A stretch of DNA of 64,000 nt from Archaeoglobus veneficus SNP6 (GTDB lineage Archaea; Halobacteriota; Archaeoglobi; Archaeoglobales; Archaeoglobaceae): positions 434,001-498,000 of the forward strand of contig NC_015320.1 in the NCBI RefSeq assembly GCF_000194625.1, written 5' to 3'. The notes beneath the pieces are model-generated. The model saw only the letters and a program-made list of their open reading frames with translations. It ran no database searches and had not been told where the DNA came from. A program made the translations under genes and the position numbers. Each line of letters begins with the position of its first letter. The first letter of the stretch is position 1. Below are positions 26,678-31,670 of the stretch, in pieces.

Positions 26678-27070
26678 TCAAAGCTTCTTCAACCCTCTGA
26701 TTTTTTCAACGAATTCAGTTAAAATTCTGACGAACCTGTCGTCCTCACTCGCATCAACCCAGTCGAATTTTATCCTTTCCTCCTCAACGCCCACACTTTT
26801 GAGGATTTTCCTGAGCAACAGGTATCTTCCATAGGCTTTGTAGTTGCCAACCTTAAAGTGACATCCACCGGGACGACAGCCGAGTACCAGCACTCCGTCG
26901 GCTCCGCACTTAAAGGCCTTCATAATAAACTCAGGTTCGATCCTTCCGGTACAGGGAACCCTTATTATTCGCACGTTCTCCGGATATTCCTTTCTTGCTC
27001 CACCGGCCCTGTCTGCAGCTTCGTAACTGCAGTGGTAACAGCAAAATGCAATAATTACTGGTTCGCACAT
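26678..27070 (-). CDS. mvhD: MvhD-type [2Fe-2S] electron-transfer subunit
   Basis: A 130-residue homolog of the delta subunit of methyl-viologen-reducing hydrogenase. Cysteines occur as FCCYHCSYEAADRAG, RVPCTGRIEP and LGCRPGGCHFKVGNY, the usual cluster-binding set. MvhD normally docks an electron-input enzyme to HdrA. Here no hydrogenase large or small subunit is nearby, as in sulfate-reducing archaea where HdrA-MvhD pairs serve other donors. The ATG at 27070 overlaps the hdrA end by 16 bases, indicating translational coupling. Confidence 0.92.
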   Translation of the reverse strand: MCEPVIIAFCCYHCSYEAADRAGGARKEYPENVRIIRVPCTGRIEPEFIMKAFKCGADGVLVLGCRPGGCHFKVGNYKAYGRYLLLRKILKSVGVEEERIKFDWVDASEDDRFVRILTEFVEKIRGLKKL

Positions 27071-28965
27071 CCGGTAATCCCCTCTATTTCGGCAAAGATC
27101 TGTTCGGTTGTGTAATGTCTTGCTTTGATTGCCCCCACCGGACAGGCCGGTACGCAAATGCCACACCCTTTGCAGAAGGTCTCATCGATCACGCACACGC
27201 CCCTTTCTTCATCGTATGAGATCGCTCTATACGGACACAGTGCGATGCAGAGCTTACAGCCTGAGCACCTCTCCCCGTCAATAGTACACGCTGTTGGCTC
27301 TATTAAGAGTTTTTCTCCATGACGAAGTTTTGATAGAATCCTGCCAGCAGCCGCCATTGCTTGTTGAACACTCTCTTCTACGCTGCACGGCCCTAAAACT
27401 CCACCTGCCGCCAGTACACCTGAAGATACCTCCACAGGCGACGTTATCAGGTCTGTAACTTCAAGGAAGCCGAATTCATTCAGGCTGAGGTCAAACACTT
27501 CTGCAATTTTTTTGACCTCTGGAGAGGGAGCTATACCGCACATCAGAATAGCCATATCCACGCTCAACTTCTGGTTCCCTCTCTCTCCCGTGTATTCTAT
27601 GGTTACTTTTCCATTGGCGTTATTCACGCTAACCTTGCTTCCAGGCAACCTTCTGTGGAATCTTGCTATCCTGGATATCTCATCGTAAAGTTTCCAGTGC
27701 AGGGGGCTGGGCAGAACAAGGTCGATGTAAATGTGGTGAATTGCACAGTCTGGCAATCGTTCGTGAATTATGTGCGAGTACTTCAGGGCAACGGAACAGC
27801 AAATTTTGGAGCAGTAGCCCAGTTCTTCCCTACTAACACAGTGGATTATCGCTACGGATTTCGGTTCCTGTCCATCGGGCAGCAAAATTTTGCCGCCTGT
27901 GGGGCCATCTCTGGCGAGCACCCTCTCGAATTTTGGGGAAGTATATATCCGGGCTTCATCACGGGCAGGATATACCGAAAATCCCTGTGCAAGTATTACT
28001 GCTCCACACTTTAAACTTATTTCCCGGGCATTATCCTCAAAGTTTATAGCTTCAAAGGCACACGACTCGATACACTTTTGACACCCTCTCGTGTAGAGGC
28101 AATTTTCCCGGTCAATAACAGGCACGTTCGGCAGCACTCCGGGATACGGCAGGTATATTGCTCCTCTCTCCTTCATTCCATACTCATAGTCATTTGCCAC
28201 TCTTACCGGACACGCTTCTGTGCACATACCGCAGCCCACGCATTTATCCGCATCCACATACCTCGGTTTCTGGAGAACCCTTAACAGAAAGTTTCCCAAG
28301 CCACCCTTGGCTTCCAGAACTTCTGCATTGGTGAATACTTCAACGTTAGACCTTCCAAGAACTTCCTGAATTAATGGAGCCATTAGACACTGTGCACAGG
28401 TGAGGTTTGGGGACAGAAGTTCGTAGGTAATCGTTCTTCCACCGATGTGCGGGTTTCTCTCAATAAGGTAAATCGTTCTACGCGTGTCCTCACTCAGGGT
28501 GAGCGCTGCAAGAATACCAGCCACACCCGCGCCAACTATTGCGACATCTAAGTTAGCGTCTATGTACTTCTCCTCCAGGGGTTCGTGATACTCGACTCTG
28601 TTCAGCGCACCCTTCATCAGGTGTATTGCTTTATCTGTTGCCAGATCCGGGTTCTTACTCACCCAGGCGCACTGCTCACGTAAGTTTACGACATGAGTTA
28701 AAAAGGGATTAATTTTCGCCTTTTTGGCTACCTCCTGCAGTGTACTTTCTATCCTCTTTGGGGTGCACGCTCCAAAGACAACGTGTGTGAATCCTGAAAT
28801 TTCTTCTGGCAAGCTGTTCAGGACTTCCGGTATGCATAGCATTGGAACTGTGACAACCCCTTCTACTTCTGCGCTTATAGCTTTAGCAACCCTGTTGAGG
28901 TCTATTTTTTTGCTGATTTCACCTCCACACTCACATAAATAGACTAATTTGCGCTTTTTAACCAT
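27055..28965 (-). CDS. hdrA: Heterodisulfide-reductase-like subunit HdrA
   Basis: A 636-residue iron-sulfur flavoprotein. N-terminal domain (1-135), then the FAD site VAIVGAGVAGILAALTLSE, a Cys-rich region with CVGCGMCTEACP and CQKCIESCAFEAINF, a second nucleotide-binding half, and two C-terminal [4Fe-4S] motifs CSGCKLCIALCPYRAI and CKGCGICVPACPVGAI. HdrA is the electron-bifurcating core of Hdr complexes. HdrB and HdrC are not in this cluster, so the oxidised partner is unknown. It is preceded by the sensor gene (10 bases) and followed by mvhD. Confidence 0.93.
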   Translation of the reverse strand: MVKKRKLVYLCECGGEISKKIDLNRVAKAISAEVEGVVTVPMLCIPEVLNSLPEEISGFTHVVFGACTPKRIESTLQEVAKKAKINPFLTHVVNLREQCAWVSKNPDLATDKAIHLMKGALNRVEYHEPLEEKYIDANLDVAIVGAGVAGILAALTLSEDTRRTIYLIERNPHIGGRTITYELLSPNLTCAQCLMAPLIQEVLGRSNVEVFTNAEVLEAKGGLGNFLLRVLQKPRYVDADKCVGCGMCTEACPVRVANDYEYGMKERGAIYLPYPGVLPNVPVIDRENCLYTRGCQKCIESCAFEAINFEDNAREISLKCGAVILAQGFSVYPARDEARIYTSPKFERVLARDGPTGGKILLPDGQEPKSVAIIHCVSREELGYCSKICCSVALKYSHIIHERLPDCAIHHIYIDLVLPSPLHWKLYDEISRIARFHRRLPGSKVSVNNANGKVTIEYTGERGNQKLSVDMAILMCGIAPSPEVKKIAEVFDLSLNEFGFLEVTDLITSPVEVSSGVLAAGGVLGPCSVEESVQQAMAAAGRILSKLRHGEKLLIEPTACTIDGERCSGCKLCIALCPYRAISYDEERGVCVIDETFCKGCGICVPACPVGAIKARHYTTEQIFAEIEGITGCANQ

Positions 28966-28975
28966 TTTTTATCCC

Positions 28976-31228
28976 TTATTTTTTTGAAGTTAAAGTACTG
29001 TATATTTTCTCTGTTAGTTTGTAAGTTTTTATCTCCTCCTTTCTCATATCATCGAGCTCATCTTTTATCCTCTTTACATGTTCACGTATAATCTCAAAAA
29101 CTTTATCTTTTCCGAGCTCATCTACCAGCTCAAGCGAACCCATTATAACTGCGAGGGGGTTTCTCAGTCTGTCTGCCGAGGACTCAAACTGTTTGAGGTT
29201 GGCTGCAAGCTGCTCAATGGCCTTTTCTCTATCCTTCTCAACCTCGTACGCACTCAGCGCAAAGGCTATGTTACTTGAAAGCTTCTGAAGGAGCTCTATC
29301 TCATCTTCGCTGAAGTCCGAACTTGAGTGAATTGTAATAACACCATGGAGCACGTCGTGTATGAGAGGAATCGATAAAACATACTTGTGCGGTTTGTCCG
29401 TGCAGTGCCTGCAGAGCTTGTCATCCATCTTTAGCTTCATTATCTGCCCATCCAGGGCCTTTGAGATGGATGGGCAGTACTTAATCGCCCTGTTCATGGA
29501 ATCTATGTCGATACCCTTCGATCTTACAGGTTTCAGCTCTTCTTTCCTGCTTCCGAGAGAAGTGAAGACCGCATCATAAATCAGTGAAAGCTTCTCGCAG
29601 ACGGCTTTAAGCACGATTTCTGGATTCCTCTCCCTTGCAACGAGCTCGTTTATTTCTGATAAGACTTTAAGCAGGTTGTTAAGCTTTTCTCTATCCTTCT
29701 CAACCTCGTACGCACTCAGCGCAAAGGCTATGTTACTTGAAAGCTTCTGAAGGAGCTCTATCTCATCTTCGCTGAAGTCCGAACTTGAGTGAATTGTAAT
29801 AACACCATGGAGCACGTCGTGTATGAGAGGAATCGATAAAACATACTTGTGCGGTTTGTCCGTGCAGTGCCTGCAGAGCTTGTCATCCATCTTTAGCTTC
29901 ATTATCTGCCCATCCAGGGCCTTTGAGATGGATGGGCAGTACTTAATCGCCCTGTTCATGGAATCTATGTCGATACCCTTCGATCTTACAGGTTTCAGCT
30001 CTTCTTTCCTGCTTCCGAGAGAAGTGAAGACCGCATCATAAATCAGTGAAAGCTTCTCGCAGACGGCTTTAAGCACGATTTCTGGATTCCTCTCCCTTGC
30101 AACGAGCTCGTTTATTTCTGATAAGACTTTAAGCAGGTTGTTAAGCTCGTATACGTGTTTAATTGCATCGTTAATCCTCTCACCAATCTCAGCAAAAACA
30201 CCAGTAAGCTTTGAAACGTCAATCATCTTCGAAAGGTCTCCATCCCGTATGGCTGTGCACAGGTCCTGTATCTCATGCAGGGTAATATTAATTTGCTTTA
30301 TAGCTTGATTTATATTATTTGTAATTTCTGCGTAAATTCCCGGCATGTCCCATTCAACTTCGCTGAACTTACCCTCTGCAATCTGCTTAACAGCATCTGA
30401 AGTGTTTCTCAAGCCAAGCTCCAGCGCTATTGACATCTCGTTAATCCTCTCACCAATCTCAGCAAAAACACCAGTAAGCTTTGAAACGTCAATCATCTTC
30501 GAAAGGTCTCCATCCCGTATGGCTGTGCACAGGTCCTGTATCTCATGCAGGGTAATATTAATTTGCTTTATAGCTTGATTTATATTATTTGTAATTTCTG
30601 CGTAAATTCCCGGCATGTCCCATTCAACTTCGCTGAACTTACCCTCTGCAATCTGCTTAACAGCATCTGAAATATTCCTCAAACCGAGTTCCAGCACTAT
30701 GTTCAACACGTTCAGCGTTTCTCCTATCTCTCGGAAGTCTTCGTGGAGTTCTGAAGTCCGGAGTGTCTTTGAGAAGTCACCCCTGATTAGCGAGGATATC
30801 ATGTCCATTGTTCTGGTTACGGATTCTTTTACCTCAGTGAAGTCCTCAAGTACCTCTATGACTCCCCATAACTTTCCATTTGAAGCAATTGGTGCATGAT
30901 AAGCGCGTAGATATCGAGTCTCGCCGGATGGTAGAGTAACTTCAACGTATAATTTATCATCCATACAGGCATCTGTCTTCTCTTTGTACAGGTTCAGGGG
31001 GCAGCCCGGCGTTTGGCAGCGGTTGGAGTTAAATACCTCGTAGCACTTTCTCCCTATGAGCTCTTCAACACTGAGTTTCGTCAGCCTGGCACACCCTTTA
31101 CTTGCAAAAACTATCTCACCTTCAGGTGTGACCACGTAGATGGGGACGAATACGTTTTCAATTCCTAAAGCGATCTTATCCGGTTCAATGCTTCCGGAAT
31201 GATTGGGAAGAGTGTTCAACTTTGACAT
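28976..31228 (-). CDS. PAS / poly-HAMP / tandem-GAF sensor protein with kinase-like tail
   Basis: A 750-residue soluble sensor. Residues about 15-130: PAS domain with Cys-rich loop (CYEVFNSNRCQTPGCPLNLY). About 135-355: repeated HAMP-like helices (GDLSKMIDVSKLTGVF, GKFSEVEWDMPGIY). About 362-515 and 516-669: two identical GAF domains, each with Cys motifs (KYCPSIS, KLCRHCTDKP). About 670-735: a dimerisation-type helix with LRNPLAVIMGSLEL but no His before it and no ATPase domain after it. It may sense redox state and act on hdrA-mvhD downstream (inference). ATG 31228 (MSKLNTLPNHSG) is preferred to the frame opening at 31246. Confidence 0.85.
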   Translation of the reverse strand: MSKLNTLPNHSGSIEPDKIALGIENVFVPIYVVTPEGEIVFASKGCARLTKLSVEELIGRKCYEVFNSNRCQTPGCPLNLYKEKTDACMDDKLYVEVTLPSGETRYLRAYHAPIASNGKLWGVIEVLEDFTEVKESVTRTMDMISSLIRGDFSKTLRTSELHEDFREIGETLNVLNIVLELGLRNISDAVKQIAEGKFSEVEWDMPGIYAEITNNINQAIKQINITLHEIQDLCTAIRDGDLSKMIDVSKLTGVFAEIGERINEMSIALELGLRNTSDAVKQIAEGKFSEVEWDMPGIYAEITNNINQAIKQINITLHEIQDLCTAIRDGDLSKMIDVSKLTGVFAEIGERINDAIKHVYELNNLLKVLSEINELVARERNPEIVLKAVCEKLSLIYDAVFTSLGSRKEELKPVRSKGIDIDSMNRAIKYCPSISKALDGQIMKLKMDDKLCRHCTDKPHKYVLSIPLIHDVLHGVITIHSSSDFSEDEIELLQKLSSNIAFALSAYEVEKDREKLNNLLKVLSEINELVARERNPEIVLKAVCEKLSLIYDAVFTSLGSRKEELKPVRSKGIDIDSMNRAIKYCPSISKALDGQIMKLKMDDKLCRHCTDKPHKYVLSIPLIHDVLHGVITIHSSSDFSEDEIELLQKLSSNIAFALSAYEVEKDREKAIEQLAANLKQFESSADRLRNPLAVIMGSLELVDELGKDKVFEIIREHVKRIKDELDDMRKEEIKTYKLTEKIYSTLTSKK
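29222..30145 (-). repeat. 462-bp perfect tandem duplication (GAF domain)
   Basis: Bases 29222-29683 and 29684-30145 read identically, giving two head-to-tail copies of a 154-codon GAF unit inside the sensor gene. No difference was seen when lines were compared by eye. Confidence 0.9.
30168..30671 (-). repeat. Tandem duplication with 270-bp period (HAMP-like unit)
   Basis: Bases 30168-30401 and 30438-30671 (234 bp each) appear identical, separated by a 36-bp stretch. The following bases (after 30671) resemble that 36-bp stretch but have diverged. The unit encodes a HAMP-like helical pair of 78 residues. Confidence 0.88.
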
Positions 31229-31269
31229 TGTTCTGAGTTTAACCAATGAAACTTAAAAACATTAATGGT

Positions 31270-31491
31270 TTATATTCTTATTCGTGCCCTCCAAATGTTG
31301 CCGGTTTTCACGCATTCAAGTATGGTTTTTCCGGTCTTGGCTGCCCATATTTTCAAATCCCTTTCGAAAGTTGGACAGTCTGCCATCACTTTGATTGTGG
31401 TCCCTGGTGGAAGTTTGGTAACTCTTGCGTGAATCTTTAGAATCGGTTGCGGGCACTTCAGCCCCCTCAGATCCATCTCTTCCTCTGCCAC
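31270..31491 (-). CDS. TusA/SirA-family sulfur carrier
   Basis: A 73-residue protein with the TusA signature MDLRGLKCPQPILKI, whose Cys carries persulfide sulfur, and a second Cys in ADCPTFERDLKIW seen in many archaeal members. Family members deliver sulfur in tRNA thiolation, cofactor synthesis or dissimilatory sulfur metabolism. The GTG at 31491 is chosen because GGGGTGA lies 5 bases upstream and the length matches the family; the frame itself is open up to 31581. It is the first gene of the tusA-sensor-hdrA-mvhD run. Confidence 0.87.
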   Translation of the reverse strand: MAEEEMDLRGLKCPQPILKIHARVTKLPPGTTIKVMADCPTFERDLKIWAAKTGKTILECVKTGNIWRARIRI

Positions 31492-31521
31492 GCGTTCACC
31501 CCGCTTTGATTTATTATGGTA

Positions 31522-31535
31522 ATAGTATCTACTAT
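31522..31535. promoter_or_regulatory. Palindromic operator candidate at the tusA promoter
   Basis: The inverted repeat ATAGTA-TC-TACTAT lies between the predicted TATA box and the expected transcription start of tusA. A site in this position would let a dimeric repressor block initiation. The regulator is not known. Confidence 0.5.
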
Positions 31536-31540
31536 CATCA

Positions 31541-31548
31541 TATTTAAG
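31541..31548 (-). promoter_or_regulatory. TATA box of the tusA-sensor-hdrA-mvhD cluster
   Basis: On the minus strand the sequence reads CTTAAATA, about 50 bases upstream of the tusA GTG, predicting initiation near 31520 and a leader of about 30 bases that carries the GGGGTGA ribosome-binding sequence. Confidence 0.5.
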
Positions 31549-31555
31549 AATGTTG

Positions 31556-31670
31556 TTATGAGTTATTAACCGTATGATCATGGATCAGGTTCTGTAACTG
31601 TTCTTCAAGACAGTTCCGCTCAACTTTCCGCCGTGTTACATCAAAAAGCGTAATCTCCCCCAAGTTATTG
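31556..31670 (-). pseudogene. PAS-domain sensor fragment (C-terminal end)
   Basis: The minus strand encodes GEITLFDVTRRKVERN followed by CLEEQLQNLIHDHTV and a stop at 31556. This resembles the PAC end of PAS domains (pattern DITERK-x-E-x-x-L). No start or upstream PAS core is in frame, so it is a relic lying just before the tusA promoter. Confidence 0.45.

Follow-up and report, generated by a model that had tools for sequence, protein, structure and literature searches.

How do two neighbouring copies of a signalling domain inside a single archaeal gene come to be identical at every base? The question is raised by a minus-strand sensor gene in the window, as we term the whole 64-kb stretch of Archaeoglobus veneficus DNA analysed here, in which an earlier note had described a perfect 462-bp tandem duplication of a GAF domain. 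Base-by-base comparison of 29222-29683 with 29684-30145 gave 0 mismatches in 462 positions, confirming the duplication itself; the many differences that an exact alignment of the copies might have brought out were not seen. The further description of two head-to-tail copies of 154 codons that agree at silent positions also holds, as every base matches. Of the span proposed for it (29222-30145) the start is correct and the end is not: the exact run at a shift of 462 is 464 bp long, which extends the array by 2 bases to 29222-30147. In reading order copy 1 occupies 29684..30147 (462 bp plus 2 shared bp) and the identical copy 2 occupies 29222..29685, both on the minus strand and both identified from this exact run and from Pfam GAF matches. 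Each unit is in frame and comprises a GAF domain with flanking stretches on both sides, including a linker helix, and Pfam recognizes GAF in two stretches of the protein (GAF_2, E=3.4e-17). At the junction the unit ends in ..GATAGAGA and starts with AGCTTAAC.., and the flanking match there amounts to 2 bp only in the window. The identity holds throughout the repeat, with no divergent edge, and a chance origin for it is excluded. The sensor gene occurs once in the genome of the window, and the GAF unit is found at two places in that genome, both at this locus, which rules out a dispersed donor copy elsewhere. A virus or phage origin was also ruled out, as no match was found in phages at the protein level or in viral contigs.

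The gene is listed as a 756-aa ORF from TTG (28976..31246, minus strand). The ATG at 31228 (MSKLN) is the likelier start, because the ortholog in INS_M23_B45, a MAG of the same genus (hereafter G019), has MSKLN without the six preceding residues. Read from the minus strand, the product is predicted to be a sensor of PAS-HAMP-GAF-GAF-HisKA-like architecture. The PAS domain covers aa 36-138 (30833..31141, minus strand; Pfam PAS_9, E=1.1e-8), Pfam HAMP_2 matches four stretches of the protein, and a HisKA-like tail covers aa 690-734 (29045..29179, minus strand), with Asp692 at the acceptor place, as recognized from a family alignment and a Pfam HisKA match just under the cut-off (E=7.9e-6). Upstream lies a TusA-like gene (31270..31581; Pfam TusA, E=5.3e-19) and downstream an HdrA-like gene (27055..28965; NCBIfam HdrA2/HdrA matches below their cut-offs, and an ortholog in G019), followed by an MvhD/FlpD-like gene (Pfam FlpD, E=5.2e-50) whose ORF is listed at 26678..27166 and whose true start is probably further in. 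All four are encoded on the minus strand and lie 23 and 10 bp apart or overlap. The order TusA, sensor, HdrA is the same in G019, where contig C39 carries the TusA-like gene and the beginning of the sensor, and contig C85 carries the end of the sensor together with an HdrA-like ortholog at the same place (77% identity).

Some match to the sensor was detected in 41 of 55 genomes of the family, but ortholog-level matches besides the window's own were restricted to G019, whose PAS, HAMP and tail parts are 67-96% identical to those of the window's protein. Similarly, an order-wide search with a HAMP-GAF query recovered 2 of 57 genomes at E<=1e-30, namely the window's own and G019. No ortholog was found in a third genome of the genus (G018), which is 76% complete, and in a wider search of contigs the window's protein recovered no relatives and the G019 part recovered G019 itself only. 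The G019 gene is split, with C39 ending and C85 beginning inside the GAF unit. With the boundaries defined in the window, exactly the first 127 bp of the unit stand at the tip of C39 and exactly the last 127 bp at the start of C85. Among the contig tips of this assembly (81 examined, ten masked ones dropped), all three end-to-end overlaps between unmasked tips are of 127 bp and one further pair shares 126 bp; these overlaps make 127 the very probable assembler k for G019. When the sequence of the window is itself laid out as a k=127 graph, breaks fall at 30021 and 29348, in each case 127 bp inside the GAF repeat, and leave repeat pieces of 464 and 252 bp, both smaller than the smallest (2142 bp) of the 43 G019 contigs examined for length. 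None of the G019 contigs contains the middle of the GAF unit. Since the break points of G019 coincide with those of the graph, it very probably carries the same tandem GAF duplication, bounded at the same positions and with ends that are identical, which would place the duplication before the separation of the two species. From these break points we infer that G019 has two or more GAF copies, a number that is read from two contig tips; these fit the same duplication to the base, and the unit middle and the junction lie outside the contigs.

How much change should have accumulated between copies of that age can be gauged from the divergence of the two species. The first part of the GAF unit differs between the window and G019 at 18/123 bases, none of which alters an amino acid (dS 1.3), and its last part at 20/129 (dS 1.6), this comparison covering only about 127 bp at each unit end. 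Corresponding dS values are 0.9 for the tail, 0.8 for the PAS part and 1.16 for HdrA, and the silent divergence of the sensor between the species is near-saturated (dS 0.8-1.6). The copies within the species (0/464) are closer to each other than the orthologs are between species (18/123 and 20/129), at silent sites too. Had the copies predated the split and remained undisturbed, about 67 differences in 462 positions would be expected, against 0 observed, which argues that the GAF copies were homogenised in the window's lineage. As far as the 127-bp ends show, homogenisation appears to have occurred in G019's lineage as well.

A second tandem repeat, absent from the earlier note, is present in the same gene. 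TRF and shift analysis delineate a 270-bp double-HAMP unit of 90 codons in the region 30168-30707, with copy 1 in reading order at 30438..30707 and copy 2 at 30168..30437, both on the minus strand. All 11 differences between these copies are within the first 36 of the 270 bp, and the last 234 bp are identical; the chance of such an arrangement is ~5e-11 if the differences were randomly placed. As a simple duplication would yield identity over all 270 bp, with later mutations scattered, the observed pattern implies that a tract was homogenised after its edge had diverged. The 234-bp core was probably made identical in this way, and the HAMP repeat, with its tract structure of identical core and divergent edge, is internal evidence of conversion-like exchange that is independent of other genomes. 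In G019 the HAMP region runs without a break and contains one unit; a second unit sharing a 234-bp identical core with the first would have led to a break at k=127. Hence the number of HAMP units varies between the species, with 2 in the window's gene and 1 in G019.

Besides the GAF and HAMP repeats, no exact direct repeats of at least 30 bp within 3 kb of each other were found in the window. As genome background we surveyed 20 stretches of 20 kb of the window's genome (400 kb, ~21%) for direct repeats within 3 kb. The longest non-CRISPR repeat in this sample spans 147 bp, and the others are one spanning 64 bp, two of 31-35 bp and a CRISPR-like array. The array has a period of ~68 bp (L126:147-4698, about 665.1-669.7 kb of the genome), and the repeat spanning 64 bp has a spacing of 290 bp, with no long ORF listed over it (L137:18871-19224). 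In G019 two neighbouring pilin-like genes have in common an identical stretch of 83 bp in the signal-peptide region (L093:11095-11827).

A parallel case, brought out by the repeat survey, is present in the same two genomes in the form of neighbouring DUF7289 (pilin-like) genes (L121:2939-4395, about 97.9-99.4 kb of the window's genome; L088:194-1632 in G019). The neighbours have a common 138-bp stretch, with 8 differences in the window's genome and 15 in G019, whereas orthologs differ over the same stretch at 30 (downstream genes) and 39 positions (upstream genes). Before the 138-bp stretch protein identity between the neighbours is only 51/160 and 46/156 (~30%), as against 135/169 and 106/158 between the orthologs. 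This is segment-limited concerted evolution between close direct repeats, and as both pairs are contiguous in their assemblies it stands without the kind of inference needed for the GAF unit.

Based on these observations, we consider it highly probable that the GAF duplication predates the split of the two species and that recombination between its copies has preserved their identity. According to this proposal, a tandem duplication of the GAF unit with its linker helix would have preceded the separation of the window's species from G019, and thereafter the copies would have been kept alike via gene conversion, or via unequal exchange that retained at least two copies. The same process would have acted on the HAMP unit, with incomplete homogenisation and a number that changed between the species. 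The data fit conversion and unequal crossing-over alike, and we infer that recombination of either kind, and not repeated fresh duplication, keeps the copies alike. The earlier note had offered a very recent duplication, active gene conversion and a phase-variable repeat number as explanations; active gene conversion is the best supported of the three, given the G019 signature, the core and edge pattern of the HAMP repeat and the DUF7289 case. A weakness of the proposal is that the gene occurs in only two species, without a third point for comparison.

The alternatives differ mainly in what they make of G019. If the tandem duplication had arisen very recently in the window's lineage only, the copies would have had no time to diverge, and both their full identity, including silent sites, and the clean 2-bp junction would follow. 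Yet the contigs of G019, a species separated from that of the window by a dS of 0.8-1.6, break at both predicted boundaries at exactly the k of 127, and the adjoining HAMP repeat has been homogenised in a manner inexplicable by any single duplication, so that we do not favour this explanation and regard it as very improbable. The signature in G019 could be accommodated if the GAF unit had been duplicated afresh and independently in both lineages at a preferred site, and the difference in HAMP number between the species does point to a gene prone to the gain and loss of units. However, a junction match of 2 bp gives no reason for the same break points to be used twice, and both boundaries agree to the base; we accordingly see little likelihood in recurrent duplication. 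That the second GAF copy is not real, and merely an artefact of assembly, was named at the outset as a possible refutation, and exact long duplications can indeed be assembly errors. The genome of the window is nevertheless a single contig of 1,901,943 bp, and in G019, a different species assembled independently, the contigs break at these boundaries, just where a tandem repeat would break them, which leaves an artefact with a practically negligible chance.

Variation of the repeat number within the strain, causing length or phase variation of the sensor of which one state has been seen, is of a different nature, being compatible with the maintenance of the copies by recombination. Recombination finds good substrates in direct repeats that are perfect over 464 and 234 bp, both units (154 and 90 codons) keep the reading frame, and the HAMP number differs between the species. 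As the GAF and HAMP units are multiples of three, a change in number would alter the length of the protein and not switch the gene off. Against this, the arrangement is seen in one assembly of the species, and we judge such variation to be rather unlikely.

As to what the protein might do, Pfam detects no ATPase domain behind the HisKA-like tail. The tail is of a family widely represented in Archaeoglobaceae; in 30 of 30 members at most 82 residues follow the match, leaving no room for such a domain. These 30 aligned sequences are the window's own and 29 relatives, taken only from loci returned by the family search and from one further G019 contig, with three shorter matches of 33 excluded. 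The conserved His of HisKA-like domains is absent from them; all 30 have an Asp two residues before an LRNP motif, where a kinase has its His. In the window's protein this is Asp692, which corresponds to HisKA profile position 11 (from the Pfam match, in which residue 690 aligns with position 9), a position that we take to be the His in HisKA. Each GAF copy has three cysteines in a CPSI...LCRHC arrangement, identified from the motif positions and their conservation in relatives: C437, C458 and C461 in copy 1 (29864..29938, minus strand) and C591, C612 and C615 in copy 2 (29402..29476, minus strand). Most Archaeoglobaceae relatives retain the CxxC, with its last Cys present in 29/30 aligned sequences and its first in 21/30, and the motif might possibly be a metal or redox site. 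A structure model of the second GAF domain and the tail, computed from the single sequence without an alignment, had a mean pLDDT of 43 and was not used; a sequence search of solved structures recovered only general GAF, HAMP and PAS relatives together with chance-level matches, with the HisKA-like tail unaligned. The domains and the gene neighbours suggest, with much less certainty than attaches to the evolutionary mechanism, a sensor with a redox- or sulphur-related role that would act through contact with other proteins. The product would be a soluble archaeal sensor, comprising a PAS domain, a HAMP stack, two GAF domains and a kinase-less HisKA-like dimer tail, encoded in a TusA-HdrA-MvhD cluster, whose two identical redox- or metal-responsive GAF domains may signal to a partner protein by way of the dimer tail.

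Proteins of related design have been described in archaea. Non-enzymatic histidine-kinase-like proteins ('HisKA, no HATPase') are reported mainly from Archaeoglobi and Methanomicrobia, and share with the window's protein the PAS/GAF sensors, the C-terminal HisKA-like dimer domain and the lack of an ATPase domain, but are described as having a conserved His, whereas the window's protein and its 29 relatives have an Asp at the acceptor place (PMC5847659). RdmS/MsmS, H-box-less MA_type 2 kinases of Methanosarcina acetivorans whose reported redox role has been revised, are likewise archaeal sensors without a classical H-box; unlike the window's protein, which is without an ATPase domain, they are reported to bind and hydrolyse ATP (PMC11784639).

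With regard to the repeats, tandem in-frame units that are homogenised by recombination and vary in number are reminiscent of spider silk and fungal WD-repeat genes, although those are described as arrays of structural or recognition repeats and the present case concerns two globular sensor domains. Most of what is known of gene conversion in archaea comes from polyploid haloarchaea and from methanogens. Prokaryotic paralogs under concerted evolution by gene conversion, such as tuf and mtrA, resemble the present case in that copies within a species are closer than orthologs, at silent sites too, and in that the mtrA copies are tandem (PMC6053082). The cases presented there are, however, whole duplicated genes, with seven archaeal genes from methanogenic species, whereas here two domains lie inside one ORF of a sensor, in a genus of a non-methanogen order (PMC6053082). 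Literature searches, with most subscription journals outside their reach, returned nothing on this gene and nothing on intragenic homogenisation in Archaeoglobales.

The locus provides a compact natural case for measuring gene conversion inside one archaeal gene, with two adjacent repeats, one fully and one partly homogenised, and two species at near-saturated silent divergence. It also carries a warning, in that short-read genomes break or collapse such sensors, so that tandem sensor domains may be under-counted. A more speculative and rather doubtful proposal is that the stack of signalling modules is adjustable, with selection retaining no fewer than two identical GAF domains and perhaps HAMP pairs in variable number. 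If this were true, the dose or symmetry of identical redox-sensing domains would matter for the sensor, and recombination that keeps the domains identical and shifts their number would amount to a slow tuning of the sensor across species, and perhaps within populations.
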